In this document: positions 101-25,335 of the stretch, piece by piece
Layout: every line of letters begins with the position of its first letter
How positions within the stretch are numbered: the stretch's first letter is position 1
IMG/VR virus record: IMGVR_UViG_3300006990_000013
Coordinates: 53,771-117,770 of that record
DNA from: a virus
Direction: 5' to 3' (one strand)
Length of the DNA stretch: 64,000 nt
Translations under genes and position numbers: made by a program
The notes under the pieces: generated by a model
What the model was told of the DNA's origin: nothing
The model's input: only the letters and a program-made list of their open reading frames with translations
The model's database searches: none

Positions 101-115
101 AGGGAAATTTTTAAA

Positions 116-1093: not shown

Positions 1094-1112
1094 CTGAAGG
1101 AGTGAATTGAAA

Positions 1113-1625: not shown

Positions 1626-1629
1626 AAAT

Positions 1630-2328
1630 ATGAAAATTTTTGTTGTGAGAATCGGGAACAAATATGGGCCCGAATATGAAGACTATATTGAATCGAAACT
1701 AGGAGACGACTATGAAGTCGTCTGGATTCGTGAACCTTACGATAATCGTGTAGAACTACAATGGAACAAGATGTCTGTAATGGATATGGACATCGATGAA
1801 CCAGTGTGCGTAATCGATATCGATCTTCTTCTGATTAACGACTACAAAAAGTGTTTTGATTTTCCTGTGGAACGTGGACAGTTTCTTGCTATGCGAGCAT
1901 GGTGGAGAGACACTCTGCATCCAGACTATTCTTTGAATGGTGGTTTCTACAAATACTATCCGAATGATTGTCGGTACATCTACGAGAAGTTTATGACAGA
2001 CGTAGAACACTGGCAGAAATTCTACATTCGTGCAGGCATCACAAGTGGGCCTGTGAACGGTGAACAGTATTTTGTTGAGGATGCGGTTAAAGAAGAACTG
2101 GAACTGATCTATCTACCATCTGCATGGCAGACACGGTGGTTGAGTCAGAATGATGTACTTCCTGATCTATACACTGAGTGGCAAAACCGTTTCAATAAGA
2201 AATATGAAGCCGTTACTGGTAATGAGTATGCGTGGTTTGGTGACTTTCATGAAGACATCAAGTTAGTACACTTTACGCATGAAATGAATCTACCCCACAC
2301 ATGGAAGTATTATAAACAATACACCTAA
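1630..2328 (+). CDS. Glycosyltransferase-like protein (GT-A fold, DxD)
   Basis: 232 residues from ATG 1630; an upstream in-frame ATG at 1570 lies inside the previous gene and is rejected. Features fitting a GT-A glycosyltransferase are VCVIDIDLLL (DxD-type metal/nucleotide-sugar site near residue 64), an RAWWRD block, NGGF and GxVNGEQ. It is clearly homologous to the 8454-9242 protein, which has RRWWSR, NGGF and GKVNGEQ at matching places. Sugar donor and acceptor are unknown. It opens the 24 kb accessory block. A perfect inverted repeat (AGACGAC/GTCGTCT, 1704-1723) lies in its 5' coding part. Confidence 0.65.
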   Translation: MKIFVVRIGNKYGPEYEDYIESKLGDDYEVVWIREPYDNRVELQWNKMSVMDMDIDEPVCVIDIDLLLINDYKKCFDFPVERGQFLAMRAWWRDTLHPDYSLNGGFYKYYPNDCRYIYEKFMTDVEHWQKFYIRAGITSGPVNGEQYFVEDAVKEELELIYLPSAWQTRWLSQNDVLPDLYTEWQNRFNKKYEAVTGNEYAWFGDFHEDIKLVHFTHEMNLPHTWKYYKQYT

Positions 2329-2330
2329 AC

Positions 2331-2343
2331 GGAAGAACCTTCC
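2331..2343 (+). other. Short hairpin in the intergenic gap
   Basis: GGAAG-AAC-CTTCC forms a perfect 5-bp stem and occupies most of the gap before the radical SAM start at 2350. The GGAAG arm is the only Shine-Dalgarno-like sequence available, so folding could limit initiation. Small and possibly fortuitous. Confidence 0.3.
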
Positions 2344-2349
2344 TATATT

Positions 2350-3765
2350 ATGAAAATTAAAACTGAAAAAGAAAAACCAGATCTTATCGCTCTAAAAGAT
2401 CATGATGCTGATGCGTATGCGTCTACTCCTCATGATTACTTCAAGAAGGGTGAACCTGATCTGAACTATATGTTAGATGAAGTCATCAAAGATAAAGGTG
2501 ATTTCTTCTGCTCCCAGCCTTGGGTTCATATGTACATGCCAACATATGGATTCCAGCATATTTGTTGTAATACAAGTATGAGTGTGAAGAAACATATTTC
2601 CCAAGCAACCTTTGAAGAACTTTACAACGAACCAGAGTTCACCAAACTTCGTGAAGAGATGGTTGGTGGCCACAAGGATCGTGAAAGAACTCTGAAGACG
2701 TGTGTTAGATGTATTCAAACAGAACATCGTGGGTTTCCTTCCCTGCGAGAGTCCTATAATAGATCTGCAAACAGAAACACCCAAACAAAAGACGAGATGG
2801 GTAAACTCGTTAGTAAAGTCAAAGAAACTGGCGATGGGAATATTGGGCTACCAGAAAAACTTCACACGGTTGAACTCAAAGTGTGGGGAAACTATTGTAA
2901 CCTTCAGTGTCTAATGTGTTCTGTAGAGGACTCGTCTTCTGTTGCAGAAGAACAGATGGCACTGGGTGAGATAGATGCAAAGGGTATTAAAGAACGTGTA
3001 ACATTGCGTACAGGTATTGAACCACCCTTTACCCCACCTTTGATTCGATATCAAGACAACTACATCGATGAAGATCAGTACTGGGGCATTATTGATCGTG
3101 CAGTACGTATCAAACTTATCGGTGGAGAAACTTTTCTTCAAAAACAAAATATTCAATTGTTAGAACATCTTGTCAAAACAGGCAAGGCGAAGGATAAAGA
3201 ACTTATCATCTTCACAAACAACTATGGATATCCACGTATGGAATACGTGCGAGACCTTCTACGCAACTTTAAATCAATTGCGTACAAATGTTCTATGGAG
3301 TTATGGGGTGAGAAGAATGATTACATTCGTTACCCATCAAAGTGGGATGAAGTACATCGTAACATGAAAATGATGGCGAAGATCCCTCAGTTACAAGTGT
3401 TGCCAACTTGCACACTAAATCCAATAACAATAGGATATGTACATGAGATCATCGATGGGGCGGCACAGTTCTCAGATGTCATGCCAAACTTCTCATCTGT
3501 ATCAAGACCAAAATGGTTTACTGCACACTGCATTCCAGATGATGTCGTGGATTTCTATCTGGACAGATATTATAGTCTACCGTACGAGATGATTCACCTT
3601 TGCACAAAGGCGATTGAAACTCTGGAACAACGTGATTTCAAAGAAGACAAGTACAAGAAGATGATCAACCATATCACACGTAGAGATAAACATCGTAAAG
3701 ATAACATCTTGAATTTCTTTCCAGAGTGGAAAAACCATTTCAAGGATCCTTATTATGATAATTGA
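2350..3765 (+). CDS. Radical SAM protein with N-terminal twitch-type cluster site
   Basis: 471 residues. The radical SAM cluster motif CNLQCLMC (C183, C187, C190) lies mid-protein and is followed by KLIGGE, the usual GGE SAM-binding strand. Upstream are C54 (FFCSQPW), C72-C73 and C118/C121 (TCVRC), the arrangement expected of an N-terminal twitch/SPASM-like auxiliary Fe-S domain seen in many 'twitch domain' radical SAM proteins. Such enzymes generate a 5'-deoxyadenosyl radical; the substrate cannot be told from sequence. It overlaps the next radical SAM gene by 11 nt, so the pair is probably co-translated. Confidence 0.85.
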   Translation: MKIKTEKEKPDLIALKDHDADAYASTPHDYFKKGEPDLNYMLDEVIKDKGDFFCSQPWVHMYMPTYGFQHICCNTSMSVKKHISQATFEELYNEPEFTKLREEMVGGHKDRERTLKTCVRCIQTEHRGFPSLRESYNRSANRNTQTKDEMGKLVSKVKETGDGNIGLPEKLHTVELKVWGNYCNLQCLMCSVEDSSSVAEEQMALGEIDAKGIKERVTLRTGIEPPFTPPLIRYQDNYIDEDQYWGIIDRAVRIKLIGGETFLQKQNIQLLEHLVKTGKAKDKELIIFTNNYGYPRMEYVRDLLRNFKSIAYKCSMELWGEKNDYIRYPSKWDEVHRNMKMMAKIPQLQVLPTCTLNPITIGYVHEIIDGAAQFSDVMPNFSSVSRPKWFTAHCIPDDVVDFYLDRYYSLPYEMIHLCTKAIETLEQRDFKEDKYKKMINHITRRDKHRKDNILNFFPEWKNHFKDPYYDN

Positions 3766-4798
3766 TAATCAGTTCAATTTAAAAAAGATGGACTCTGAGA
3801 TTACTAATAGATGTAATGCTGCATGTACATTGTGTCCACGTACGGGCACATATCCAGGCGGGTTGGGTAAAGAAGTTTATAACTCAGGCCCATTGGATAT
3901 ATCTCTGGATGTGATAGAAGAATGTCTTGGTTGGCCAATTAAGAAGTGGCAGTATTGTGGTAACTACGGTGATCCGATGGCCCATCCAAAGGTGTTTGAC
4001 ATTGCAGAGATGGTATCCAAATCTACAGTAGATGCACAACAGTTCGACACAAATGGTTCTATGAGATCCACTCAATTCTGGAAAGAGTTGGGTGGACTTC
4101 CTAATAATATGATAGTGAACTTTGCACTTGATGGACTAAGTGATACAAACCACATCTACAGAACCAACACCAACTTCGAAAAGATCATTGAAAATGCAAA
4201 AGCATTCATGGCAGGTGGTGGTATTGCACGTTGGATCTTTATTGTTTTCAACCACAATGAACACCAAGTAGAAGAAGCCAGAGACATGGCAAGGAAACTT
4301 GGGTTTGATAACTTTGCTTTCAAAAAGACTTCTAGACAACTAGAAAAAGGTTCGACAACTGCAAAGAAAGAATATAAGAAGTCGTCAAAGTCTGAGACAG
4401 TTACCAAATCAGTAACTGCAACTAAGAGACCAGAGTTCCAAGCGGATACGATCAAGAGAGGTGTTGTTGAACATGTTGTCTCTTGTAAGGCACTTGGACA
4501 GAAGAAAATGTATGTGACTCCAAAGGGACAATTGATTCCCTGTTGTCACGTTCACCAAGATCTCTTTAAGAACGAATACAATCCAGAATTCCGTAGTAAG
4601 AACGATGAGATGAACTTCACAACTTGGCTGGATGAAAACAACGTCAAGTACGATCTCAATAAGTATACCATATTTGAAGTGATGAAGTCTTACAGAGAAA
4701 ACCTTGACTCGATTGAAGACAGGTGGTTTAGAAGATCTTTACGTTCTTGTAATAAAAAGTGTGGGAGCAATCTAAGAAATGAAGTCGTTAATTATTGA
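3755..4798 (+). CDS. Radical SAM protein with SPASM-like C-terminal cysteines
   Basis: 347 residues. The N-terminal cluster motif is CNAACTLC (C20, C24, C27). A TIM-barrel core follows, with GNYGDPMAHP as the GGE-like segment. The C-terminal region carries more cysteines (VSCKALG, IPCCHVHQD, RSCNKKCG), as in SPASM-domain radical SAM enzymes that bind auxiliary [4Fe-4S] clusters and modify peptides, sugars or small molecules. A Lys/Ser/Thr-rich insertion (about residues 198-222) is unusual. Translationally coupled to the radical SAM gene upstream. Substrate unknown. Confidence 0.85.
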   Translation: MIIDNQFNLKKMDSEITNRCNAACTLCPRTGTYPGGLGKEVYNSGPLDISLDVIEECLGWPIKKWQYCGNYGDPMAHPKVFDIAEMVSKSTVDAQQFDTNGSMRSTQFWKELGGLPNNMIVNFALDGLSDTNHIYRTNTNFEKIIENAKAFMAGGGIARWIFIVFNHNEHQVEEARDMARKLGFDNFAFKKTSRQLEKGSTTAKKEYKKSSKSETVTKSVTATKRPEFQADTIKRGVVEHVVSCKALGQKKMYVTPKGQLIPCCHVHQDLFKNEYNPEFRSKNDEMNFTTWLDENNVKYDLNKYTIFEVMKSYRENLDSIEDRWFRRSLRSCNKKCGSNLRNEVVNY

Positions 4799-4892
4799 CT
4801 ATTATTATAATATCAAAACATATTTTGTGGGTTGGTATTATAAAGTATCTAAGAAAGAAACTGATGATGAATTTATTTACGAGGATGATTAA
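4779..4892 (+). CDS. 37-residue microprotein, paralogue of the ORF at 25225
   Basis: Starts inside the 3' end of the upstream radical SAM gene in another frame (ATG 4779) and ends TAA 4890-4892, overlapping the next ATG by one base. The sequence has a hydrophobic/aromatic N-terminal half and ends DDEFIYEDD. It shares the pattern Y-x-I-(K/R)...F..W......E-x-F-I-Y-E-(E)D with the 36-residue ORF at 25225-25335, which also starts inside an upstream 3' end. Stop-start coupling on its 3' side supports translation. Function unknown. Confidence 0.55.
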   Translation: MKSLIIDYYYNIKTYFVGWYYKVSKKETDDEFIYEDD

Positions 4893-5608
4893 TGAGTCTT
4901 TTTGATCTGATCGAAGAAAAACGTAGACACGTTAGAGAATATATGACAAAGGTGCCTCCAAGGGAAATTGTTGAGGACTGTCTATGGAAAGCGTGGAAAA
5001 CATCTCCTTCTAAAAACAACTTCATGGCATATCGTGTGGACGTTTATGGGCCTGATAAACAAGAAGAGAAAGAGATTATCTGGAACCTTGTTCTGAAGAA
5101 TCACATTCGTGCAGAAGAACGTGCACAACGAGATGGTAGAATAGAGTTTACTCAGAAGGGTGAACCAAATCCTTTCTACGAACATGTAAAACTCAATCCC
5201 TATTTGTTTGTTCTCCACAGTAGAGTGGCAAAGAAAGCGAATAGGTTCTACGCACATCAAATAGAAAGAGGTCACTTTGCAGATCAGATGTATCCAGATC
5301 TAGTCGAAAGACTGGTGGATTCTGTGGCAGTTGACTGTGGACTATTCTTATCTAACCTTACCGCTGCACTTCTGGAACACGACATAGACGTTTCTTACAA
5401 TTCTTGTTTCCTCAGAGATCCCGCCATCTGGCGTTCTGCTGGACTTGATCATGTTGAGTATCGTCCTATCGTTATGATGAGTGCAGGGTACGCTGCAAAA
5501 TATAGACACGAGTGCCTCACTGAATGGAACATGGATGGATGGGATGTTAAACCAGACATCGAAGAAGTTATAAAATGGGTGGGCGAAGATGTTACTAACA
5601 CTGGGTGA
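4892..5608 (+). CDS. Nitroreductase-like flavoprotein A
   Basis: 238 residues. The architecture fits the nitroreductase (FMN) superfamily: an N-terminal RRHVREY helix with the R-x-x-R/Y entry, a W...SPSKNNFMAYRV segment, a central insertion, then VAVDCGLFLSNLTAALLEHDIDVSYN and a GY-type C-terminal strand (MSAGYAA). Related to the products at 6413 and 59878. Members reduce nitro, quinone or oxime groups or oxidise peptide azolines; the substrate here is unknown. TAATG coupling to the microprotein upstream. Confidence 0.65.
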   Translation: MSLFDLIEEKRRHVREYMTKVPPREIVEDCLWKAWKTSPSKNNFMAYRVDVYGPDKQEEKEIIWNLVLKNHIRAEERAQRDGRIEFTQKGEPNPFYEHVKLNPYLFVLHSRVAKKANRFYAHQIERGHFADQMYPDLVERLVDSVAVDCGLFLSNLTAALLEHDIDVSYNSCFLRDPAIWRSAGLDHVEYRPIVMMSAGYAAKYRHECLTEWNMDGWDVKPDIEEVIKWVGEDVTNTG

Positions 5609-6401
5609 TAGTTTTACCGTAAAGAGATATGACGGTGATAAACCTTGGTCTGAACAACTTGCAGAGAAACTGGGTATGGAATTACTCAATATATCTCACG
5701 AAGGCGAGTCCAACTCTTATATGTTCCGTAATGCGATATGGGCATTGACAACACAAGATGTTGAACTATGTGTCATATCTCTGACAAACTGGGACAGGTT
5801 TGAACTTCCGTACTCAGACTATGGTCTAAAGGGTTCTGGAATGTACGACAGAACAAAAACATTTAAACCAAAAAACTGTTGGGATGAAGATAATCCCTAT
5901 TCAAAGCTTTACATTGCATACTATTCTATGTTATACTACGTAGATACAACCTCTTCGTATATCATTGCGATTGACAACTTGTGTAAGGCAAAGGGCATTC
6001 CTCTGATCTTTACACAACCTCTGTTGCCTTTCAACGTGAGAATCAAGGCGGTTAAAACTGGAGAACTGGACTTTTTGTTTTCAAAGAATATGAATGCTAT
6101 GGGTGAAGACTACATTGAAAATATTTCGTTGTTCCGTCATGTTGATAAATCACTATTCTGCATGTTCAAACCAACTGCGCAAACAATACTCTTTGGTAAG
6201 GAAGATGGTATATCTGAAAAGACTTACGACAACATGTTCAGTTTCTTCACAAGGAACCATCCAGAATATGTGATGGGTTATCATAATAAATACATTTATA
6301 AAGGTGGGCAGGCTTTTAGAAAATCATGGGATGGTCATCCTAATTTGAAAGGTCACCAAATGATATCTAATATTGTTTATGATCACTATATGAATATGTA
6401 A
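5589..6401 (+). CDS. SGNH/GDSL-type hydrolase A
   Basis: 270 residues. Block I is LLTLGDSFT (S8 as nucleophile) and block V is DGHPNLKGHQMI near residue 250 (Asp-x-x-His in the classic order), so an active esterase or acyl/acetyl-transferase is plausible. The gene overlaps the nitroreductase-like gene by 20 nt. Two paralogues occur at 23726 and 24483. SGNH enzymes in glycan or lipid pathways often add or remove O-acetyl groups; that role here is inference. Confidence 0.7.
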   Translation: MLLTLGDSFTVKRYDGDKPWSEQLAEKLGMELLNISHEGESNSYMFRNAIWALTTQDVELCVISLTNWDRFELPYSDYGLKGSGMYDRTKTFKPKNCWDEDNPYSKLYIAYYSMLYYVDTTSSYIIAIDNLCKAKGIPLIFTQPLLPFNVRIKAVKTGELDFLFSKNMNAMGEDYIENISLFRHVDKSLFCMFKPTAQTILFGKEDGISEKTYDNMFSFFTRNHPEYVMGYHNKYIYKGGQAFRKSWDGHPNLKGHQMISNIVYDHYMNM

Positions 6402-6412
6402 AGGAGAACTAC

Positions 6413-7117
6413 ATGTCTGTTGCAACAACGTATGCAGATCGAAATCAAACACGTTACTTTGATCAAAACGAAGTTCCTGATAAAGAACTAATTGAAAAGT
6501 GTCTACTCAAGACTCATGAAATTGTCATGTCAAAACAGAACTTGATGCCGTATCAGTGCCATATTTTTGGCCCTGATGATTATGATATCAAAAGACGGTT
6601 CTATGAACTGGCAAGTACGGTAGAGTACGCTGATCCTGAGAAGAGACAGTTCTACCGAATGGAGAGATTAGAGAAACATGAACGTTTCTTTGATAAACAA
6701 AAAAGATTCCCGAATGGTAACAGTCAATTGTTTGCGCCGTGGGTTCTTGTATTCTCACCACGTAAACCAAAACCAAACAAACTAGTTCAAGACTACCTTG
6801 AAGGTCAACACGAGATGAACTATGAGGACATCAAAAACTATGACAGTGGTGCATCCAAGATGGAGATTGGGATGTTCGCTGCGTTGTTGGGTGGTGTATG
6901 TGTAGATGAGGGTCTGAATGTTAGTTACACTGGGTGTATCAACTCACGTGCATTGGTCGAAGAGTTTACATGGTGTAAGTCACAACCTGCAATTTCAGTA
7001 AGTATTGGGTATCCCCATACTGAACTTAATGATCGTTACCTTTATAATAAAGTATTCTTCAAAAACAAAGGTGAAGATAAACCTAAGCCGGAAGAAATAT
7101 TTCACTGGATGGATTAA
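6413..7117 (+). CDS. Nitroreductase-like flavoprotein B
   Basis: 234 residues, preceded by AAAGGAGAACTAC. It has the same layout as the 4892 product: RNQTRYF at the N-terminus, VPDKELIEKCL, then SKQNLMPYQCHIFGP, and the C-terminal half MEIGMFAALLGGVCVDEGLNVSYTGC with ISVSIGYP. N-terminal segments match the 59878 product (RYQTACF, IPDKELIEKIL), so the two are close relatives. A redox role with FMN is inferred from fold; substrate unknown. Confidence 0.65.
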   Translation: MSVATTYADRNQTRYFDQNEVPDKELIEKCLLKTHEIVMSKQNLMPYQCHIFGPDDYDIKRRFYELASTVEYADPEKRQFYRMERLEKHERFFDKQKRFPNGNSQLFAPWVLVFSPRKPKPNKLVQDYLEGQHEMNYEDIKNYDSGASKMEIGMFAALLGGVCVDEGLNVSYTGCINSRALVEEFTWCKSQPAISVSIGYPHTELNDRYLYNKVFFKNKGEDKPKPEEIFHWMD

Positions 7118-7119
7118 AA

Positions 7120-8457
7120 ATGTTTGATGTGGTAACTGGAATCTCAGAAGGATTCCATGACGCCTGTAAGACTATTATCAAAGATGGTAAGATTGTCTAT
7201 GCAGGTCATGCGGAAAGATATTCTCGCATAAAGAATGATAAACACCTACACCCTGATATGCCTGAGACAGAAGGTGTAACTGTATTTTATGAAAAACCTT
7301 TCCTAAAAAATACCAGAAGATTATATGCAGGTCAGTCTTGGAAGAAACGTGGTAAGTATGACTTCACGGTTCCCCATCACTGGTCACATGCGTCTGCAGC
7401 TTATTACACTCGTCCCTTTGCTTTAAAGGAACCAGTCTGCGTTGTTATTGATGCGATTGGTGAGTGGGACACTGCATCTATCTGGTGGAGAAAGAAAAAG
7501 GTTTGGAGTATGAAGTACCCTACATCACTGGGACTTTTCTACTCTGCGATAACACGTCACATTGGACTTAAACCAAATGAAGACGAGTTTATCACAATGT
7601 GTCTCGCAGCGATGGGTGACAGAAACAAATATGACTTCGATCCCTATCTGTACTATCACAAGGGATATGACTTTGGTAAGGGTCGTAAAGAAGATATCGC
7701 CGCATCCGCCCAAAGAATACTTGAAGACGAAATCCTGAAGATCATGGAGAAAGCACGTTCTTACTCTCCTTATCTTTGTTATGGTGGTGGGGTTGCACTA
7801 AACTGTGTTGCGAACACAAAAATTAAAAAAATGTTTGATGATATGTGGATCTTCCCAAACCCATCAGATGGTGGTAGTTCTTTGGGTGCAGCGATATCTG
7901 CACTAGACCTTGGCCCGTACAGAACGTTGCAGATTGATAACATGTTCCTTGGACATGAAATAAAAGGCGAATTAGATGTTGCCAAAGTGGTACAAAATCT
8001 GGTACAATATAAAACATGTGGAGTAGCAAATGGTAAAGCAGAATTTGGCCCTCGTGCTCTTGGTAATCGTTCTCTCTTGGCCGATCCTAGAGTGGACAAT
8101 ATCAAGGACGTGGTTAATAAGGTTAAAAATAGACAAGGTTATAGACCGTTTTCGCCAGCGATACTAGAAGAATATGCGTCTGAGTATTTTACTGGCCCTA
8201 TGAATGAGTACATGCAATATGTCTCTCATGCGGAACATGATTACCAAGGGGTGATGCATGTTGATGGTACGTCTAGAGTCCAAGTCGTTAAAGACGATGG
8301 AAGCAACATGCGTAGAGTCCTAGAAGCGTGGTATGAAAAAACTAAATGCCCTATGTTACTAAACACATCACTTAACATAAAGGGTAAACCTATCGTGAAT
8401 AATGAACGAGATGCAAAAGAATTTGAAAAGGTAACAAAGGTTCCAGTAGTAACATGA
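7120..8457 (+). CDS. NodU/TobZ-family carbamoyltransferase A
   Basis: 445 residues. The N-terminal Kae1-like domain has the metal-binding histidine motif PHHWSHASA (H86, H87, H90) and VCVVIDAIGEWDTASIW. The C-terminal YrdC-like part carries FGPRALGNRSLLADP, the signature of O-carbamoyltransferases that use carbamoyl phosphate and ATP through carbamoyl-adenylate to modify sugars or antibiotics. At 445 residues it is somewhat shorter than typical members (about 550). It sits among radical SAM, nitroreductase and glycosyltransferase genes, so a carbamoylated glycan or metabolite is likely. Paralogue at 20222. Confidence 0.88.
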   Translation: MFDVVTGISEGFHDACKTIIKDGKIVYAGHAERYSRIKNDKHLHPDMPETEGVTVFYEKPFLKNTRRLYAGQSWKKRGKYDFTVPHHWSHASAAYYTRPFALKEPVCVVIDAIGEWDTASIWWRKKKVWSMKYPTSLGLFYSAITRHIGLKPNEDEFITMCLAAMGDRNKYDFDPYLYYHKGYDFGKGRKEDIAASAQRILEDEILKIMEKARSYSPYLCYGGGVALNCVANTKIKKMFDDMWIFPNPSDGGSSLGAAISALDLGPYRTLQIDNMFLGHEIKGELDVAKVVQNLVQYKTCGVANGKAEFGPRALGNRSLLADPRVDNIKDVVNKVKNRQGYRPFSPAILEEYASEYFTGPMNEYMQYVSHAEHDYQGVMHVDGTSRVQVVKDDGSNMRRVLEAWYEKTKCPMLLNTSLNIKGKPIVNNERDAKEFEKVTKVPVVT

Positions 8458-9242: not shown

Positions 9243-9786
9243 GTATGATGAGTGGTATGAACACAACCTAAAACATATGGTTGACACGTACTCTGGTTTG
9301 AAGTATGATGAGTTCGTCTGTATTGATGAAGATCTCTATGATGACGAACGTGGTGTTTTTAACAAACTTCAAATGTTTGATAAATATAAGGACGGTCAAA
9401 ACATCTTTTTTGATTTGGACGTTGTAATTAAAGGCGATTGTAATCACTTCTTGAGAGATGAGTTTACATTGTGTCACGCACATTGGCGTGAACCATTTCA
9501 TACTCCTCTGAATAGTTCCATAGTTTCATGGAATGGAGATGCATCTCACGTAACTGAGGCATTTCACAAGGATGAAGAGTATTGTCTATTATTTTACAGA
9601 AGAGGAATCGATCAGTATATTTTTGAGAATACAAACTACGATATGTACTCAATAGAAGATAAATACGTATCATACCAAACTGTATTAGAAGAGACTGATG
9701 CGCCGGTATACTTATTTAACCAAAGATACAAAAACATGCAGAGAGATAAAGCATGGTTCTCAAAGTATCTATTAGAGAGAAAGTGA
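9208..9786 (+). CDS. Glycosyltransferase-like protein, short
   Basis: 192 residues from ATG 9208, which follows GGGG and overlaps the previous gene by 35 nt. NIFFDLDVVIKGD supplies a DxD-type motif (about residue 71), with NSSIVSWNG in the position of the NGGF block of its neighbours. It is probably a divergent third member of the same GT-A group. A near-consensus sigma70 pair TTGACA-17-TATGAT lies at 9281-9309 inside it. Confidence 0.55.
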   Translation: MLRVICVRTGSKYDEWYEHNLKHMVDTYSGLKYDEFVCIDEDLYDDERGVFNKLQMFDKYKDGQNIFFDLDVVIKGDCNHFLRDEFTLCHAHWREPFHTPLNSSIVSWNGDASHVTEAFHKDEEYCLLFYRRGIDQYIFENTNYDMYSIEDKYVSYQTVLEETDAPVYLFNQRYKNMQRDKAWFSKYLLERK

Positions 9787-9791
9787 AATAA

Positions 9792-10433: not shown

Positions 10434-10436
10434 ATT

Positions 10437-16593: not shown

Positions 16594-16604
16594 AGGGTAA
16601 ACAC

Positions 16605-18298: not shown

Positions 18299-18301
18299 AA
18301 A

Positions 18302-19408
18302 ATGAGTATCTCATATGATGCATGGGATCGTGAGTGGAAAGCCAATGAAGTCGCATACTACGGTCTACTTGATAAAGCAATGCAAAAACCATATGATGGT
18401 AGTGTTGAGTTTTTGGAACAGAACATTGAGATGTTCACTGGACGTTACTATGCGGTAGGTGTTGCCAATGCAACTGATGCGTTATACTTTGCACTCGTGT
18501 CAAAAGGTATTGGACAGGGTGATGAAGTTATTGTAACTAACTTCTCATGGATATCTTCTGGTACTTGCGTAACACGTTGTGGTGCAACGCCTGTGTTCTG
18601 TGACATCGATTTGGATACTTATCACCTATCTTTTGAATCTGTGAAACGTATGGTTTCTCCAAAAACCAAAGCACTGATCTGGACACATCTGTTTGGTTCA
18701 ATGTCAGACACTCGTGAAGTTGAGGAATGGTGCAGAGACAAAGGTATTCTCTTTGTAGAAGATGCAGCGCAGTCTGTTGGTTCATCTTTGGATGGTCGTA
18801 AAGCAGGCAATATCGGTGACTGTAGTGTATTCAGTTTCAATTCAAATAAAGTTATCGCAGGTATCGCAGGCGGTGGGATGTTCTTGACAAATGATAAAGA
18901 TCAGGCAAATGCCGTTATGTCTCTACGTAGACATGGTAAAGTCGGTGAGTCATTTGATACTGAACACGGTGTAAACTCCAAACTGTATGTACCAAACGCA
19001 GAGGTTATCGCCCATCGTCTTAAGTTCATGACGGTATGGCAGAGTAAACGTCAAGAGATTGCAAAACTATATGACGCTGCATTCAAAAAGATGCCGATAG
19101 AAATACAGAAACAAAAACCTCGTTCTGTTCTCCAACACAACTACCACAAGTACGTTGTACGTTTTGAGGATCGGGAGACTCGTGACTTTATTAAGAAGTC
19201 TATAAAACAAACAGGGAAGTTCAAACCATCTGTTCACTACGGTTGTCCACTTTCAGATCATGGTTGTTTTGATAACATAAACTTTCGTAAAGATGACACG
19301 CCTAATTCCAAGACCGCATCACAGACGATAATGTCACTACCTATCCATCCTTTCCTTACAGACGATGAGATAAATACCGTTATAGAATCAATCGTGGGAA
19401 TATTATAG
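18302..19408 (+). CDS. DegT/DnrJ/EryC1/StrS-family PLP aminotransferase
   Basis: 368 residues, full length for the family. GVANATDALYFAL (PLP phosphate-binding turn), VEDAAQS (Asp that contacts the pyridine nitrogen) and FSFNSNKVIAGIAGG with K183 as the Schiff-base lysine. These enzymes aminate keto-sugars (or, in antibiotic pathways, cyclitols and imines) from nucleotide-linked precursors. Its presence beside radical SAM, carbamoyltransferase and methyltransferase genes suggests amino-sugar or aminocyclitol-type modification. Confidence 0.88.
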   Translation: MSISYDAWDREWKANEVAYYGLLDKAMQKPYDGSVEFLEQNIEMFTGRYYAVGVANATDALYFALVSKGIGQGDEVIVTNFSWISSGTCVTRCGATPVFCDIDLDTYHLSFESVKRMVSPKTKALIWTHLFGSMSDTREVEEWCRDKGILFVEDAAQSVGSSLDGRKAGNIGDCSVFSFNSNKVIAGIAGGGMFLTNDKDQANAVMSLRRHGKVGESFDTEHGVNSKLYVPNAEVIAHRLKFMTVWQSKRQEIAKLYDAAFKKMPIEIQKQKPRSVLQHNYHKYVVRFEDRETRDFIKKSIKQTGKFKPSVHYGCPLSDHGCFDNINFRKDDTPNSKTASQTIMSLPIHPFLTDDEINTVIESIVGIL

Positions 19409-19409
19409 T

Positions 19410-20222
19410 ATGAGTTCAGAAAAATTTGGATTTGGTATCGACTTCTATTTGACAAAGTCGTGTAACAAATCTTGTCATTATTGTACTGCATGGACAACTG
19501 AGATGAGAAATCTCGACATTGACATGGAGTTCGCAGCCCCTCTTCTTAAATGGTTATCACCATACAAAGCAAGAATCAATCTTCTTGGTGGAGAACCTGC
19601 ACTTACAAACAACTTAGATGAGATGATTGCAGAGATTAAGAAGTATCCTAATCTCACACCAGTTGTATTGTCTAACAGTTTGATCAGAAAATTTTACCCT
19701 CACATCTTAGAAGATCCAGCCGTCCACTATGTGGAACATTTGGTATTGGACTTCTATGAAGATCGTATTGAGAAGTTGGGCAACTATGACTTCCTAGAGG
19801 AAAACGAAAATAATAATTACAATGTGATTATCATGACTCCTAACTTCGAATTGTATAAGAAGAAACATGGACTCATGGAACTGCATCACAAGAATACCTT
19901 GTTTAAAGAGTATAACTCAAGATCGCCCACTTACTCTACATTTGATCAGGAACCAGAGATGGTGAGACGTTTGTGTTCTCTCTTCCCTCGTGTTCCAGTA
20001 ATTGATTTTGAAATGAAAAAAATCCGACACTGTAGTAAAAAAGTTATCAACGGTTCTCGTCACTTTGATGTGACACAGGAGAACATTGATAAGATGATGA
20101 ACTTCGATCTATTTGAATTCGAAAAGTACTGTCAAATGTGTACAGAGAAACTGTCTCGCAGAGGTAGTAAGATCGAAGCAGTGATGATGGATAAAATACT
20201 TGATAGGATGACAACAGCATAA
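19410..20222 (+). CDS. Radical SAM protein
   Basis: 270 residues. The cluster motif CNKSCHYC (C18, C22, C25) is followed by NLLGGEPALT, the GGE motif. C-terminal cysteines (RRLCSLF, RHCSKKV, KYCQMC) may bind a second cluster. Smaller than the other three radical SAM proteins. A weak late-promoter-like GATAAATA lies 33 nt upstream of the ATG inside the DegT gene. One base overlaps the carbamoyltransferase start. Confidence 0.82.
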   Translation: MSSEKFGFGIDFYLTKSCNKSCHYCTAWTTEMRNLDIDMEFAAPLLKWLSPYKARINLLGGEPALTNNLDEMIAEIKKYPNLTPVVLSNSLIRKFYPHILEDPAVHYVEHLVLDFYEDRIEKLGNYDFLEENENNNYNVIIMTPNFELYKKKHGLMELHHKNTLFKEYNSRSPTYSTFDQEPEMVRRLCSLFPRVPVIDFEMKKIRHCSKKVINGSRHFDVTQENIDKMMNFDLFEFEKYCQMCTEKLSRRGSKIEAVMMDKILDRMTTA

Positions 20223-21820
20223 TGGCACAGATCTTTGCCCAACCCCTAAACTTACATGATCATAACACATTCGACGGAAAGACACACATACAGTACGAGA
20301 GATACCCTGTATCATATCGTCGTAAACACTGTCACTGGCGGATAAAATATAACGAGAAGAATCCAGAACATCTCAGAATGTTGGATCAACAAATTCCTTT
20401 TCAAGACATGTATAATGAATTGTTTGATCAAAACGCTGACTCTGAAACTATCCTCGCAATGAACCACACACTGAATGGTCTGAAACTGTACGGTGCGGAT
20501 AGGTTTATTGAGAAGTTCGATGAATTTGGTAAAGATACCATTGGGTTCAGACCAAAAAACTTGTGGGACTATCAGGCACAAGGTAATGTGTATTACACTG
20601 ATCACCACCTCGCCCATGCAGCGCACACGTTCTTGTCTTCTGGTTACGAAGAGTCGGATATTTTTATCATCGATGGCGGTGGTAATATGTTCCGTTCTAT
20701 CTTCGTTGACTCTAAAAAACAAGAAGTCGTTGATCTAAGTGATCATCTACCATTGGGTTGGTTGTGGAATGTCATGACAAAAATTGGAGACTTTGGTGTA
20801 CTTCAAGAAGGTAAACTTATGGGACTCGTGGGGTACGGTAAGTTCGACATTCGTTGGTATGAGATATTCCATCTTATGTTTGAAGAGTTCTGGAATCAGT
20901 CAGGTAAGTATTGGCCAGATCATCCATACTTCGAATCCTTCATGAAGAATGATAGTTGGAAAGTTGACATGGCTCATACTCTACAACAGTTTACCTTAGA
21001 CAAGATTGAAGAGATTGTATTACCATTGAAGACATCTAACAACCTATGTGTTGCAGGGGGTGTTGCATACAACGGTTATATGAATGAGATGTTAACCAAA
21101 CACTGGGATAACGTTTATGTACCTTGTGCGCCTGGCGATGAGGGACAATCTATTGGTCTGTACATGCACGCTAACTATGTTCTCAATGGAGAGGTAGACA
21201 TCCCACCAATTTATATGGGGGATGAGTATGAAGTCGATCCACAGATCTTTGAAGGTTTGTCTGCAGAAGAGATGGACTTTGATGACATCTGTTTAGTCGT
21301 TGCAAAAGAGATTGCGAATGGTGCAACAGTTGGTTGGCACCAAGGACGTGCGGAGAGTGGTAATCGTGCACTGGGTAATCGTAGTATTCTTGCAGATCCA
21401 CGTGATGCTAGAATCAAAGACATTATCAATGGACGTATCAAGATGCGTGAAGACTTCCGTCCGTTTGCACCTAGTGTTCTGGTTGAACATTATCAAGACT
21501 ATTTTGATACAAACCAACCAAGTCCATTCATGTCACGTATCATGCCTGTCAAGGAAGATAAGAAAGAGGTAATCCCTGGCGTCACTCACGTCGATGGAAC
21601 CGCTCGTATCCAGACTGTTGATAAAGAGACTAATGAGAGATACTACAAAGTTATCGATGCATTCTATAAAGAGACAGGTGTTCCTATGCTTGTTAACACC
21701 AGTTTCAATTGCCAAGAACCTGTGGTGGAGACACCGAAGAATGCAGTGGATACATTCAAGAGAACAGGACTTGATATTCTTGTGGTGGGGAATTGGTTAG
21801 TTAGAAAATGGAAAAAATAA
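20222..21820 (+). CDS. NodU/TobZ-family carbamoyltransferase B
   Basis: 532 residues, near full family length. TDHHLAHAAH (H128, H129, H132) is the Kae1-like metal site, IFIIDGGGNMF and LCVAGGVAYNG are nucleotide-binding strands, and SGNRALGNRSILADP lies at the start of the YrdC-like domain. Transfers a carbamoyl group to a hydroxyl. Coupled by TAATG to a radical SAM gene. The 445-residue paralogue at 7120 also sits near radical SAM genes. Confidence 0.9.
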   Translation: MAQIFAQPLNLHDHNTFDGKTHIQYERYPVSYRRKHCHWRIKYNEKNPEHLRMLDQQIPFQDMYNELFDQNADSETILAMNHTLNGLKLYGADRFIEKFDEFGKDTIGFRPKNLWDYQAQGNVYYTDHHLAHAAHTFLSSGYEESDIFIIDGGGNMFRSIFVDSKKQEVVDLSDHLPLGWLWNVMTKIGDFGVLQEGKLMGLVGYGKFDIRWYEIFHLMFEEFWNQSGKYWPDHPYFESFMKNDSWKVDMAHTLQQFTLDKIEEIVLPLKTSNNLCVAGGVAYNGYMNEMLTKHWDNVYVPCAPGDEGQSIGLYMHANYVLNGEVDIPPIYMGDEYEVDPQIFEGLSAEEMDFDDICLVVAKEIANGATVGWHQGRAESGNRALGNRSILADPRDARIKDIINGRIKMREDFRPFAPSVLVEHYQDYFDTNQPSPFMSRIMPVKEDKKEVIPGVTHVDGTARIQTVDKETNERYYKVIDAFYKETGVPMLVNTSFNCQEPVVETPKNAVDTFKRTGLDILVVGNWLVRKWKK

Positions 21821-22527
21821 ACTTATATAATAACACCATAGATCTTGACTATATGCGAACGTTAGTCAAATTTGGAGAAAGGTTTCCAGATCGTCAAAGT
21901 GATATCTGGGACTCTGTTTCTGCAAATCAGTTTGTTTCTAAAAAAGAACTGTTGACAACCATACTAGAAAGTGGTATATTAACAGAGAAACTAACGGTAA
22001 TAGTTATTGGATCTTGGTATGGATCTATCATCGTTCCTGTAATTGCGCCTTTGGTGAAGAAAGTAGTCTTGTTTGATATTGACGAACAGACAACACATAT
22101 GGCGTCAAACCTACACGATTATGATAACTGTGTTTACAGTACAGTGGACGTTACAAAATATAAGTCTGGAGAATTCGACACCGACAATCTGTTAATTATA
22201 AACACATCGTGTGAACATATGCAATCTATGTGTGATGTATTGGCACTTCAAAAATGCCCTTGGAATCACAAAAGAACGCACTTTGCGTTTCAATCAAATA
22301 ACATGTACGGTATCGAAGGACATGTGAACTGTAAAGACACAATAGATGATTTTAAGAAAGAACTGCCACCTCGTCATCTAATTTTAAAACAACAAGGAAT
22401 AACTGAAGAACGTGGCACCAGATATTTCTTATTCGGCATGTTACCGCCCAATCAATCGATGAGATCAAATGGATCACGTCAGTTGAATTTGAGGCAGAGA
22501 ACAGAGCAAGGGGTTAAAAGAAAATGA
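21808..22527 (+). CDS. SAM-dependent methyltransferase-like protein
   Basis: 239 residues, 13-nt overlap with carbamoyltransferase B. TVIVIGSWYGSIIVPVIAP resembles motif I of class I methyltransferases, VVLFDIDEQTTHMA the acidic loop of motif II, and NLLIINTSCEHM motif IV. A basic C-terminal tail (RQLNLRQRTEQGVKRK) is unusual. Acceptor unknown. A near-consensus promoter TTGACA-17-TATATT lies at 21952-21980, ahead of the heme oxygenase. Confidence 0.6.
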   Translation: MEKINLYNNTIDLDYMRTLVKFGERFPDRQSDIWDSVSANQFVSKKELLTTILESGILTEKLTVIVIGSWYGSIIVPVIAPLVKKVVLFDIDEQTTHMASNLHDYDNCVYSTVDVTKYKSGEFDTDNLLIINTSCEHMQSMCDVLALQKCPWNHKRTHFAFQSNNMYGIEGHVNCKDTIDDFKKELPPRHLILKQQGITEERGTRYFLFGMLPPNQSMRSNGSRQLNLRQRTEQGVKRK

Positions 22528-23060
22528 GTAATTTAAAAGAACTTACGTGGGAACATCATGAGAAGGCTGAGACATCTCAGTTCGCAACAACACTGATGAG
22601 TGGTGATATTACACCAAAAGAGTATCAGGAGTATTTGTTCAATCAGATGGTTTGTTATGGTGCACTTGAAGGTGCGGTAGATCTACCAGAAGAATACAAA
22701 CGTGTGTTTCGTGCAAACGCAATCTTCGAAGACATGCATGAACTGATGAAAGAATTCAATCTTCAACCGATTGAAACTGCACTAGAAACAACTGTAGAAT
22801 ACGTGAACTATATTGAGAGCATTAAGAATGACAACCATCGTCTTCTTGCACACTTGTATGTACGTCATTTTGGTGACTTGCATGGTGGTCAGATGATCTC
22901 AAAGAAAGTGCCAGGCAGTGGTAAGTATTATCAGTTCGAAGATAGATATGAACTAATCAAAGGGATGCGTACATTACTTGATGATTCGATGGCAGACGAA
23001 GCAAGAATTTGTTTTGATTTTGCATTTCGATCTTTCGAGGAAATGAGCACAGATGAGTGA
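22524..23060 (+). CDS. ho1: Biliverdin-producing heme oxygenase
   Basis: 178 residues. HEKAE near the N-terminus gives the proximal haem-ligand histidine (H12), and FGDLHGGQMI is the distal-helix GDxxGGQ signature. It opens haem to biliverdin IX-alpha, Fe and CO using reduced ferredoxin. It is followed, with an 8-nt overlap, by the bilin reductase, as in phage ho1-pebS and ho1-pcyX pairs. Shorter than cyanobacterial Ho1 (about 240) at the C-terminus. Confidence 0.92.
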   Translation: MSNLKELTWEHHEKAETSQFATTLMSGDITPKEYQEYLFNQMVCYGALEGAVDLPEEYKRVFRANAIFEDMHELMKEFNLQPIETALETTVEYVNYIESIKNDNHRLLAHLYVRHFGDLHGGQMISKKVPGSGKYYQFEDRYELIKGMRTLLDDSMADEARICFDFAFRSFEEMSTDE

Positions 23061-23733
23061 GCACGCTGATAAGTTAAAAGGATTCGCATTTTTTCTCGAA
23101 ACACAATTCGATAAATACCTCAACCAATGGGATAATAAAAAACACTTCCAACACCTTCATGGGTGGCAAGATGATTTTTGGAATAGTGATCTCGTTGAAA
23201 AATGTCATCTTAAAACGATTGACTTGTTAGAAGAACGTAAACTATGGTTACTACATCTTAATATATTTCCACGGCCAGGCTGGGACATCCCTATCCTTGG
23301 TTGTGATATTGTTGCAGGCCCTAATAAGATTAGTGGTGCGTTCTTTGATTTTTCTCCAGTTGTCCATGATGATCACGAAATGTGTAAACACTTCAATGAT
23401 CAGACACAAAAGTTTACTTGGAAGAAACCACGTGAACTGCCTCCTTGGGCAAAGGAGATCTTCAGTGACCACATGATGGCAATCGGAAACGTGCGTGGTG
23501 AGGAAACAGATAACTTCCTTCTTGCCATTTCCCAATTAATATGTTATTATCTAAAGAACATGGAAGATAAAGCAGTGCAGGTAGATTTCTCTACACGAGA
23601 GATCCTCAACAAGTATTGTATTAATCAGAAGAAGAATGATCAGTTGCACAACAGTATACGTGCAATGGGTATCAGTGACGAAGCAAAAGACTACTATGTA
23701 AACAACGTATTATTTGAAGAGATCAATGACTAA
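23053..23733 (+). CDS. pcyX: Ferredoxin-dependent bilin reductase, PcyX-like
   Basis: 226 residues. PILGCDIVAGP and the following GAFFDFSPVV match the FDBR core; D99 is at the position of the catalytic Asp that protonates biliverdin. The NIFPRP strand and C-terminal KYCINQKKND block are also FDBR-like. The family includes PcyA, PebA/B, PebS and the marine-phage PcyX, which makes phycoerythrobilin. Assignment to PcyX rather than PebS rests on the non-cyanophage context and needs a tree. Would act on biliverdin from the gene upstream. Confidence 0.85.
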   Translation: MSEHADKLKGFAFFLETQFDKYLNQWDNKKHFQHLHGWQDDFWNSDLVEKCHLKTIDLLEERKLWLLHLNIFPRPGWDIPILGCDIVAGPNKISGAFFDFSPVVHDDHEMCKHFNDQTQKFTWKKPRELPPWAKEIFSDHMMAIGNVRGEETDNFLLAISQLICYYLKNMEDKAVQVDFSTREILNKYCINQKKNDQLHNSIRAMGISDEAKDYYVNNVLFEEIND

Positions 23734-24490
23734 AACTTTACTTACTCTTGGGGATAGTTGGACAGACAGTGAATATCCTGGCTATGCACCCAACGGTGTA
23801 GTAACTTGGGCTGAACAAGTAATAGAAAATATGGAAGGTTGGAAACTCGTCAACCTTGCAAAAGAAGCATCTGGTAATGAAAAAATTATGAAGATTGGTG
23901 TAGACTATCTTCGTGACAATACACCAGATGCAATCTGCGTGTTGTGGTCAGAACAACATAGAGAGGATTTCTACAATCGTCATAACTTGATGCCTATCTC
24001 TGCACTGTATAATAAATTGTGTGATCCGAAGACTACAGAGATATACAACGTTCAGGCGGTTTATGATTCTCTTGTGAATACAAACTTACACTTAAATGTG
24101 CCTAGAGAATATTTTAGAAACCTCTACATTCTTCAAAGTTTTGCAGACATGAAGGGTATACCGATATATCACGGACAGGGTACTAAGTTGTGGTCGAAAT
24201 GGATCTACAATAAGATGGGCAAGAAAGTTGGAAACCGATTGTGGCGAGAATGGTTAACTGCATTCATAGAGTGTGAGTACTTTGAGATGTTTGATAAAGA
24301 TCCCAAAAACTTTGTGGGATGGCCTATGCAAATTGGTATTACCAGTAAGGGGTTTTCTTTCACCGAAAGGTTTGATGGTAGACACAGAATATCTGGTGAT
24401 GATCCACACCCTAATACAAAGGGACATGAAATGATTGCTTATGAGTTCTTGAAGAAACTAAAGGCAAAGGAAACAATCGTCAATGCCTAA
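23726..24490 (+). CDS. SGNH/GDSL-type hydrolase B
   Basis: 254 residues. ATG 23726 is chosen over a TTG at 23714. Block I is LLTLGDSWTD, with DDPHPNTKGHEMIA near the C-terminus as block V. Probably an esterase or acyltransferase. Overlaps the bilin reductase by 8 nt. A sister gene follows at once; the two share the GDSW/GCSW start and HPNTKGHE end. Confidence 0.72.
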   Translation: MTKTLLTLGDSWTDSEYPGYAPNGVVTWAEQVIENMEGWKLVNLAKEASGNEKIMKIGVDYLRDNTPDAICVLWSEQHREDFYNRHNLMPISALYNKLCDPKTTEIYNVQAVYDSLVNTNLHLNVPREYFRNLYILQSFADMKGIPIYHGQGTKLWSKWIYNKMGKKVGNRLWREWLTAFIECEYFEMFDKDPKNFVGWPMQIGITSKGFSFTERFDGRHRISGDDPHPNTKGHEMIAYEFLKKLKAKETIVNA

Positions 24491-25253
24491 ACTTCTTGCA
24501 GTAGGATGCAGTTGGACAGATCAGAACTACAACACTCCAGTTAACGACGAACATGGTATAAAGACATGGCCGACACTTCTTGGTGAGTCCTTGGGGTACG
24601 AAACCATTAACATGGGCATATCTGGTTCTGGTAACAACAGTATTATGAAACAGGCAATCAATGGTATCCACAGAGAGAATCCCGATTTGATCTGTGTCTT
24701 GTGGTCGAACCAAGGCAGAATTGATCTATGGAACTTCGAACACCTCTTGCCATTCAATCTATTTTTTGGTAATATACAGAATATAGAAAGGTGGTCATCG
24801 TTAACTCAAAAGTTTGCGGCCACGATGGTAAGGAGACTTATACACGATGAGGAAGATTTAAATGTTATTGACGAGTTCTTTAGAAATATGTTTATTCTTA
24901 ATGACATTGCAACTCATAGGAACATACCGATATACTTTGGTACGGCTATAAAAATATGGCCTCACACTCATTATAAGGTTCAAAGCAAGAACGTTGATGA
25001 GGTTAAACGATATAAAAGATTCATGAAAGAGTGGATTAGAAACTCCTACTTTAATGAGTTCGATAAGAAAAAGTATAAAGAAAAATTTATCGGGTGGCCG
25101 TGGTTAGAAGAAGTGGGTGGTTTTACGATGGAAGAATTGTTGAAGGATAAAGATCGAAATCCGATACATCGTATCTCAGAAGAAGATAGTCACCCCAATA
25201 CAAAAGGACATGAGGTAATCGCAAATGAGTTTCTTAAGAAGATTAAAATATAA
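24483..25253 (+). CDS. SGNH/GDSL-type hydrolase C
   Basis: 256 residues, tandem paralogue of hydrolase B (8-nt overlap). Block I reads LLAVGCSWTD, so the GDS Asp is replaced by Cys while the nucleophile Ser is kept. Block III has GSGNNS and block V SHPNTKGHEVI. May be active with altered geometry. Role in the surrounding pathway is inferred. Confidence 0.7.
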   Translation: MPKLLAVGCSWTDQNYNTPVNDEHGIKTWPTLLGESLGYETINMGISGSGNNSIMKQAINGIHRENPDLICVLWSNQGRIDLWNFEHLLPFNLFFGNIQNIERWSSLTQKFAATMVRRLIHDEEDLNVIDEFFRNMFILNDIATHRNIPIYFGTAIKIWPHTHYKVQSKNVDEVKRYKRFMKEWIRNSYFNEFDKKKYKEKFIGWPWLEEVGGFTMEELLKDKDRNPIHRISEEDSHPNTKGHEVIANEFLKKIKI

Positions 25254-25335
25254 AATCCGAATTTTTTTCGCAAGATGGGATAAAGATGAGGAACCAGAAA
25301 CATTCATCTATGAAGAGGAAGATACAGGCAAATGA
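25225..25335 (+). CDS. 36-residue microprotein, paralogue of the ORF at 4779
   Basis: Starts (ATG 25225) inside the 3' end of hydrolase C in another frame and ends TGA 25333-25335, overlapping the gp33 ATG by ATGA. It begins MSFLRRLKYKIRIFFARWD and ends in an acidic EPETFIYEEED segment. Amphipathic basic N-terminus, acidic C-terminus. It shares the ...FIYE(E)D ending and spacing with the 4779 microprotein. Coupling at its stop codon makes translation likely. Function unknown. Confidence 0.6.
   Translation: MSFLRRLKYKIRIFFARWDKDEEPETFIYEEEDTGK

Follow-up and report, generated by a model that had tools for sequence, protein, structure and literature searches.

Why does a T4-like marine virus carry a long run of biosynthetic genes beside its core genes, and do these genes serve one product? 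The locus in question lies in a stretch of 64,000 nucleotides (the window), positions 53771-117770 of the 117,770-base virus contig IMGVR_UViG_3300006990_000013 of IMG/VR. Here 27 plus-strand open reading frames (ORFs; g02-g28, 178-552 amino acids each) fill positions 1630..25253, flanked by a tail-associated gene pair (g00/g01) on the left and by the gene of gp33 on the right. Judged from gene order in related viruses, the block is not one inherited unit and consists of several separately exchanged cassettes. The best reading of these sequences is that cassettes are exchanged between anchors that recur: g00-g01-g02 at the left end, the genes of heme oxygenase, bilin reductase and gp33 at the right end, and g10 in between. 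Tentatively, as a possible rather than a probable reading, we suggest that a T4-like marine phage here exchanges cassettes which tailor a sugar for the surface glycan of the infected cell. New here are the subdivision of the block into cassettes, the counts that define its core, the exchange seen among sister phages and the chemical hypothesis.

The genes g02-g28 mostly overlap or sit a few bases apart; no gap at the 28 junctions between g01 and gp33 is wider than 21 bp, except the 93 bp behind g04 and the 78 bp that separate g28 from gp33. Positions 10222-33730 of the window are repeated in two other IMG/VR contigs at 99.95% identity, so this part is not an assembly artefact; for 1630-10222, no second assembly was present among the loci fetched. 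The GC content of the block (38-41%) is like that of the rest of the window and thus gives no compositional sign of recent foreign origin. The genes are maintained, because silent differences far exceed replacement differences in all 21 gene pairs compared (19 island genes and two core genes). Since pS is too high for usable dS (20 of the 21 pairs give an infinite value or one near 2-3, and silent sites are near or at saturation in most), we claim only that pN is well below pS; w was computable for seven pairs and amounted to 0.05-0.20. The pattern is that of purifying selection, and the motifs are mostly intact.

The left anchor consists of g00 (116..1093, plus strand, as all genes below), g01 (1107..1625) and g02 (1630..2328). 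The first is the second member of a tandem pair, whose other copy lies at about -853..100; the tandem recurs in L262-L267. It is 39% identical to Mosig_00097 of Pelagibacter phage Mosig EXVC030M, a gene that lies near VrlC, and it has no Pfam or PHROG match. By sister phages we mean those whose gp59 and four following genes are 73-92% identical to the window virus. In them g01, to which no function is assigned, is 74-76% identical and adjoins g00. Glycosyltransferase-like by weak similarity (24% to a Mosig relative of g09), g02 has no Pfam or PHROG family match; it is 78-80% identical in six sister loci (L262-L267), where g10 directly follows it. This g10 (9208..9786), a glycosyltransferase (phrog_1962, 1.8e-4), is 72-79% identical in sister phages carrying different cassettes. 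The right anchor is made of heme oxygenase (g25, 22524..23060; Pfam 8.8e-18), ferredoxin-dependent bilin reductase (g26, 23053..23733; Pfam 4e-21; 106.5 bits against the PcyA equivalog NF002760, below its cut-off of 206) and the late-transcription coactivator gp33 (25332..25586; Pfam Trans_coact 3.8e-13), with which the phage core starts. Among 48 IMG/VR loci (L218-L261, L052, L053, L144 and L040), gp33 lies downstream of the reductase in 45 and heme oxygenase upstream in 40; of the three loci lacking gp33, at least two are truncated at their end.

Between the anchors, content differs from virus to virus. The window reads g02-[g03-g09]-g10-[g11-g19]-[g20-g24]-heme oxygenase-bilin reductase-g27-g28-gp33. 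In L143 the order is g00-g01-g02-g10-[g20, three radical SAM-type genes, one unassigned gene, DegT, g22, two NodU genes, methyltransferase]-heme oxygenase-bilin reductase-gp33; one of the three radical SAM-type genes is a PP-loop fusion, and the NodU proteins have 358 and 540 amino acids. Compared with L143, the window has seven genes more between g02 and g10 and nine more between g10 and g20. L052 and L053, whose contigs end before the left anchor, read g09-g06-g08-one or two genes-g10-heme oxygenase-bilin reductase-(SGNH hydrolase, in L052)-gp33; they therefore have none of g20-g24 between g10 and heme oxygenase.

These five genes form module A: a GT-B-fold glycosyltransferase (g20, 17423..18298), a DegT/DnrJ/EryC1 aminotransferase (g21, 18302..19408), a twitch-type radical SAM protein (g22, 19410..20222), which is the signature gene, a NodU/TobZ-type carbamoyltransferase (g23, 20222..21820) and a methyltransferase-like protein (g24, 21808..22527). 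With the g22 alignment as seed, relatives of g22 were found encoded in 296 IMG/VR stretches. Neighbours were counted in the best 80 of these, minus two identical to the window, so the counts describe the nearest relatives; only loci with enough flank on the relevant side were taken in. Downstream of g22, NodU is present in 66 of 67 eligible loci and methyltransferase in 59 of 62; upstream of it, DegT is present in 49 of 57 and a g20 relative in 41 of 48. When the loci are grouped into 37 clusters at 90% identity of g22, the respective figures are 36/37, 34/35, 32/36 and 31/35, which lean upward, as any match made a cluster positive and a cluster was negative only if the flank of a locus sufficed. 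NodU-seeded scans (46 loci; best 80 of 102) were left out of these counts.

On the same strand upstream of g22, other genes of the block are rare: of 25 eligible clusters, none has g08, g11, g15, g16 or g17 there, and two have g12. Among 29 g22 loci with wide flank (at least 8 kb on both sides), relatives of any identity on either strand were counted for g11 in 4, g12 in 8, g14 in 1, g15 in 2, g16 in 1, g17 in 2, g19 in 7 and g13 in 0. Because of these counts we regard module B (g11-g17 and g19) as a set separate from module A, yet members of its families do turn up in such islands.

Module A appears to be a newly delimited core cassette restricted to viruses. In 50,697 phage records g22 matched only one, Mosig, and no cyanophage. 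The same alignment gave three loci in bacterial genome contigs (L134, L135 and L136), in a scan that relied on two short peptide patterns and can miss distant relatives. They belong to metagenome-assembled genomes (MAGs) of GTDB labelled Rhodobiaceae, Pelagibacter and Gammaproteobacteria. A bacterial origin of module A was considered and rejected, as Mosig-like phage genes, g00-type ones among them, are present on L134 and L136; on L135 (7.6 kb) there are only module-A-type genes, each with a Mosig match. By their gene content all three look like phage contigs mis-binned in MAGs, L134 and L136 clearly and L135 by its module-A content only. A search of 247 SAR11-family genomes with g22 returned one match, which is that L135 contig. 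In the open-access literature we found no paper describing the module A cassette.

Module B shows the same coherence in fewer viruses. Of the five loci obtained with g12 as seed, one is identical to the window, two are L214 (82%) and L215 (78%), and two stand at 27%. Both L214 and L215 carry g11-g12-g13-g14-g15-g16-g17-g19 in window order, without g18, and no match to g20-g23 is present in the 21.6 kb covered of each. In L214 the module starts right after a protein with the N-terminal domain of the major tropism determinant. Identities to L214 and L215, in this order, accompany each gene here: the fatty-acid-desaturase-like g11 (9792..10433; Pfam FA_desaturase 7.3e-9; 88%/74%); g12 (10437..12095; 82%/78%), a B12-binding radical SAM protein like KedN5, TokK and CysS (Pfam radical SAM above cut-off; NCBIfam KedN5 4.1e-39, below cut-off; PDB TokK 5.8e-37); g13 (12073..12789; phrog_7084, 7.7e-36; 71%/62%); g14 (12786..13385; 57%/65%), acetyltransferase-like by eye only and free of Pfam, PHROG and NCBIfam matches; the TauD-family oxygenase g15 (13363..14397; Pfam 1.9e-12; 73%/76%); a second desaturase-like protein, g16 (14372..15169; Pfam FA_desaturase 4e-17; 53%/67%); the short-chain dehydrogenase-like g17 (15162..15722; Pfam 1.1e-4, below cut-off; 53%/61%); and the aspartyl/asparaginyl hydroxylase-like oxygenase g19 (16605..17423; Pfam Asp_Arg_Hydrox 3e-11; 86%/83%). 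The 80% identity of g11 to Mosig_00080 is far above that of the other shared island genes (24-56%), which suggests a more recent exchange. TauD-family oxygenases usually have an H-x-D/E motif; g15 and its relatives, including one at 40% identity in cyanophage P-HM2, carry H-S-N-E instead. The P-HM2 relative is flanked by gp59 and gp32 and has a phycoerythrobilin gene in its vicinity.

Module C (g03, g04, g06, g08 and g09) is looser, although all five genes recur in one island of L300/L057, a single contig. It comprises a twitch-domain radical SAM protein (g03, 2350..3765; NCBIfam NF033640, 244 bits against a cut-off of 170, below the Pfam cut-off) with six viral relatives at 50-58% identity; another radical SAM protein (g04, 3755..4798; Pfam 1.5e-7, above cut-off; phrog_21308 3.5e-24), which adjoins g03 in L301 and L302; an SGNH hydrolase-like protein (g06, 5589..6401; 45-47% in L052 and L053); a NodU/TobZ-type carbamoyltransferase (g08, 7120..8457; Pfam N and C domains above cut-off, PDB relatives, 74% in L052); and a glycosyltransferase (g09, 8454..9242; phrog_1962, 1e-11; 57-59% in L052/L053).

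The remaining genes of the block belong to none of these modules. The nitroreductase-like g05 (4892..5608; Pfam 2.1e-7, above cut-off) is 52% identical to a gene in L008. The divergent g07 (6413..7117; Pfam 0.0098, below cut-off) aligns with g05 and Mosig_00082, and a scan seeded with it found nothing. For g18 (15715..16593) we take a motif to be that of sulfotransferases; the gene has no Pfam, PHROG, NCBIfam or PDB match and is 25% identical to an opposite-strand ORF in L215. Two further SGNH hydrolase-like genes, g27 (23714..24490) and g28 (24483..25253; 50% in L052), lie at the right edge. Ser8, Asn42 and His250 are kept in all seven aligned rows of g06, g27 and g28; the one Pfam match among the three is that of g28 (Lipase_GDSL_2, 8e-5, below cut-off).

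Most of the enzyme names given by the sequence-only reading, which had described one biosynthetic block of overlapping genes beside a phage core with gp33, gp59, gp32 and a putative uvsX, withstand these scans (Pfam, PHROG and NCBIfam, with PDB profile matches for some genes). Its four radical SAM proteins are g03, g04, g12 and g22, the last 0.1 bit below the Pfam cut-off; its two NodU-type carbamoyltransferases are g08 and g23, and its two nitroreductase-like proteins g05 and g07. The two desaturases, the two oxygenases of different families, the DegT aminotransferase and the three SGNH hydrolases can be kept as well. The short-chain dehydrogenase (SDR) matches the right Pfam family below cut-off, the methyltransferase g24 is weakly recognised (PHROG E 0.0076 and the Mosig annotation), and the sulfotransferase keeps its motif only. 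Of the glycosyltransferases, g09 and g10 hold and g02 is doubtful; the GT-B enzyme g20 was missed, as were heme oxygenase g25 and bilin reductase g26.

What might module A do? The AlphaFold2 model of g20 (pLDDT 90.2) has the two-Rossmann GT-B fold, with PimA as structural match (Z 15.7, root-mean-square deviation (rmsd) 3.9, 248 aligned), BshA next and other GT-B enzymes after them. For g21 (Pfam 7.8e-84; 282 bits against a cut-off of 19.8), the PDB profile search ranks glutamine--scyllo-inositol transaminase first (292 bits), with mostly sugar aminotransferases behind it. In g22, C18, C22 and C25 (CX3CX2C) as well as C189, C208, C241 and C244 are invariant in 21 of 21 sequences; four C-terminal cysteines of such kind mark the twitch cluster. 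Its top Foldseek match is the twitch dehydrogenase SpeY (E 1.3e-4, TM 0.42). Both Pfam domains of g23 are above cut-off (C domain 3.6e-68, N domain 1.4e-16), and novobiocin carbamoyltransferase, GdmN and TobZ are NodU relatives; against the NodU equivalog NF041651 it reaches 127 bits, with the cut-off at 1000.

In the scheme we favour, g22 would oxidise a hydroxyl to a ketone, g21 would turn the ketone into an amine, g23 would O-carbamoylate and g24 methylate the sugar, and g20 would move the tailored sugar onto a glycan. Module C would contribute a second carbamoyltransferase as well as esterase-like, radical SAM and glycosyltransferase genes, and module B would add oxygenase, desaturase and B12-radical-SAM chemistry. 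The acceptor would most likely be the surface glycan of the infected cell, resulting in altered receptors or exclusion of rival phages. Reactions, order, substrate, acceptor and benefit are all inferred. In a bolder version, which we consider rather unlikely, module A would be a virus-specific pathway: radical SAM and DegT enzymes would aminate an unactivated sugar position, NodU and methyltransferase would cap it, and a dedicated glycosyltransferase would transfer it. The monosaccharide would then be found only in infected cells, and whole cassettes would be swapped at fixed junctions to change the coat, like bacterial O-antigen islands.

Several results weigh against a host-glycan sugar made in this way. 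Firstly, the g22 model is of moderate quality (pLDDT 68.6). In VIA-align, AbmM, BlsE, SuiB, PqqE, BtrN and viperin fall together at Z 10.7-11.8 and SpeY ranks 34th (9.1), and in the sequence profile BtrN is weak (E 0.037), with viperins scoring ahead of it; the score against the NCBIfam prokaryotic viperin model is 35.4 bits, below the cut-off of 180. Because of the moderate model, the near-tied structural matches and the viperins ahead of BtrN, dehydrogenase activity of g22 is a guess, and hydroxyl oxidation before DegT amination may be called a plausible one. Secondly, none of the block genes was recognised as a nucleoside-diphosphate-sugar synthase, flippase, polymerase or ligase. Thirdly, the GC content is about 40% in the window virus and 30% in Mosig.

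Fourthly, the hosts give little help. SAR11 is the host group of Mosig and may not be that of the window virus. A NodU-type gene is present in 147 of 247 SAR11-family genomes, commonly coding for a protein of about 611 amino acids. Four such stretches were looked at, two of which (L295 and L296) were picked for having two NodU genes each. By Pfam, L296 reads Asn synthase-GT1-epimerase-DegT-NeuB-NodU-NodU, and L291 has NodU close to O-antigen ligase, GT2 and GDP-mannose dehydratase; L295 is glycan-like by eye only and L292 is not glycan-like. We also sampled 20 NodU neighbourhoods in roughly even steps down the match list, using tblastn with eight glycan-type markers over about 8 kb, a search of limited sensitivity with some stretches cut by contig ends (shortest 4.4 kb). 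At least one marker was found in 4 of 20 neighbourhoods and in 4 of 20 controls, and at least two in one each; 16 of the 20 sampled neighbourhoods show none of the eight. Because there is no excess, a glycan target finds no support in most SAR11 NodU genes; their use as general support was dropped, and the host-group argument is weak.

The main rival, and a serious one, is that the enzymes of the cassettes act inside the cell on virion proteins of the phage itself, of tail-fibre or g00 type, and decorate them, which would change adsorption or hide the virion. We give it a rather low probability. It is serious because cassettes often adjoin g00-type or tropism-determinant genes: a g00 relative lies upstream of g03 in five of six g03 loci, module B in L214 directly follows the protein with the tropism-determinant domain, and the Mosig block sits between tail-fibre genes and g00/VrlC. 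It also needs no export or ligation genes. The case is built on neighbourhood, however, and a g00 relative is present in only 7 of the 29 wide-flank g22 loci. AspH-like genes could act on proteins, but AspH lies outside module A.

A diffusible small molecule or natural product of the combined block or of a single cassette seems improbable to us. Single relatives do come from antibiotic pathways (TobZ, GdmN, TokK, CysS and the KedN5 family), and the part of PMC5705922 drawn on here lists a carbamoyltransferase C terminus from marine viral contigs under putative antibiotic synthesis. Against this, no ligase and no assembly-line enzyme, that is nonribosomal peptide synthetase (NRPS) or polyketide synthase (PKS), is found among the block genes with a family name, and the modules are inherited separately. 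From the sequence-only proposal of a carbamoylated, aminated glycan or small molecule, we retain the sugar-type core, as DegT, GT-B and NodU genes travel together, and give up the single joint pathway.

Just as improbable, in our judgement, is an assortment of auxiliary genes unrelated to each other, or stuffer DNA, with no product in common. It accounts for the fact that the whole block is not co-conserved and that its composition differs between sisters; stuffer DNA was also raised for cyanophage lipopolysaccharide (LPS) clusters in the portion of PMC3037559 used here. It accounts less well for the order of module A, fixed in most of the 37 clusters, for eight module-B genes kept in order in three viruses, and for pN well below pS in 21 of 21 gene pairs. 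Viral loci searched for co-conservation, the check that the sequence-only reading had proposed, gave a divided answer: the block as a whole is not co-conserved and its cassettes were gained independently, but co-conservation holds within modules A and B.

Hypermodification of DNA bases, with a modified base as the target of the glycosyltransferase and the tailoring enzymes, is disfavoured and very improbable: g20 aligns with T4 DNA alpha-glucosyltransferase (Z 13.3, rmsd 4.2, 268 aligned), whose query TM (0.53, E 0.011) tops the 50 Foldseek rows listed, and QueC-like PP-loop genes lie nearby, but some 37 other GT-B entries rank above the T4 enzyme by Z, and in the records searched, which may be fragments, a thymidylate-synthase-type gene was found in 1 of 10 and not on the window contig (control 9/14), a C5 methyltransferase in 0 of 10 (control 10/14) and TGT/DpdA (PF01702), the mark of a dpd-type system, in 0 of 11 (control 14/14).

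The PP-loop genes deserve a description of their own. One QueC-like protein is encoded at 25579-26289, between gp33 and gp59 (PHROG 1e-9; Pfam 2e-4, below cut-off), and has SGGxDS and a C-terminal cysteine cluster. A second one (54246-54932) carries the SGGxDS pattern and matches PF06508 below cut-off. L143 has a fusion of a PP-loop domain with a twitch radical SAM domain (6523-8832); by pattern and without dereplication, a PP-loop ORF with the cysteines occurs in 22 of 74 g22 loci and the fusion in 11 of 74. A role as WbuX-like sugar amidotransferase was considered for these genes and rejected, as no such NCBIfam match was found. In marine viromes, ahbD, queE and queC calls appear in the part of PMC9301287 considered, where the function of ahbD is called speculative; the radical SAM genes of Mosig are annotated as molybdenum-cofactor enzymes. 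Such genes tend to be named singly. Module A ties one of them to a fixed set, and the company of a glycosyltransferase, an aminotransferase and a carbamoyltransferase gives g22 a testable role.

The late promoter TATAAATA occurs three times in the window (3.01 expected) and not in the block. Within 1-19999, there are 55 sigma-70-like sites (56.4 expected) and 21 terminator-like sites (11.3 expected, standard deviation 3.2), the latter mostly within genes. No tRNA genes or Rfam RNAs were found. The island itself extends upstream past the window start, to about -18 kb, with gp33 at one end and a tail-tube-like gene at about -19 kb at the other. Its upstream part holds a radical SAM gene, a further nitroreductase-like gene and a methyltransferase-like gene (L004 17806-18426, L005), and also an endolysin gene at L005:7623-8498.

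How does the locus compare with known systems? In aminoglycoside pathways, twitch dehydrogenases of the BtrN/SpeY type are paired with DegT aminotransferases. Module A is alike in that its twitch radical SAM gene adjoins DegT and has weak BtrN and SpeY matches; it differs by low similarity.

The DNA polymerase of the window virus has its best matches in a Kyanoviridae phage and in Synechococcus phages, at about 44% identity, so the virus is a distant T4-like relative. A nucleotide search of the block against the 50,697 phage records gave no match; by tblastn with g23, the best of these records is Mosig (49%). Between about 55 and 74 kb, Mosig (MT647606; reported in PMC7892664 and compared with an OM43 phage in PMC9004378, as far as the excerpts of both go) carries a g20 relative, a small radical SAM gene, SGNH, DegT, g22, NodU, methyltransferase and two glycosyltransferases in the same order. 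This block likewise lies beside a g00 relative, with VrlC beyond; the desaturase 80% identical to g11 also stands beside module A, but on the other strand, and TauD, AspH and nitroreductase genes are present. Identities are 38-56% within module A and mostly 24-43% for the other shared island genes. Mosig has no match to the B12 radical SAM gene g12, and its own heme oxygenase-bilin reductase pair and gp33 are elsewhere in its genome. ORFs of the contig gave no match (tblastn, E 1e-4; Mosig 0-87.6 and 92.0-141.5 kb) to its major capsid, portal, sheath, terminase, neck and VrlC proteins; the linear 117,770-base contig is probably incomplete.

In the part of PMC11480375 that bears on this locus, HemO-PcyX cassettes of marine phages are given a Mosig-like origin. 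The window pair resembles them as a heme oxygenase adjoining a PcyA/PcyX-like reductase with Mosig-like relatives, whereas it precedes gp33 at an island edge, and g26 is 33% identical to the reductase of Mosig. T4-like cyanophages have large LPS clusters, with carbamoyltransferase genes in several genomes, according to the same portion of PMC3037559; module A differs in that g22 matches none of the cyanophages. The closest precedent in kind is the pelagimyophage 'host recognition cluster', which the excerpt of PMC7029224 describes as hypervariable, 44.6 kb on average, defined from VrlC to the neck gene gp14, with glycosyltransferases and radical SAM cassettes, and for which host-surface change against coinfection is suggested. 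The claim that the window's combination is no standard phage module is weakened by these islands; no paper on this cassette was found in the open-access literature. The window island is likewise hypervariable among relatives and holds glycosyltransferases; it differs in that it does not occupy the VrlC-gp14 position on a contig that may be incomplete, and the word 'carbamoyl' is absent from the main text of PMC7029224, as far as that excerpt goes. Taken together, the locus is a mosaic of a known kind with a newly delimited, apparently virus-restricted core cassette. As Mosig grows on Candidatus Pelagibacter ubique HTCC1062, a possible rewriting of the host glycan, or of the phage's own tails, is directly testable in this relative.

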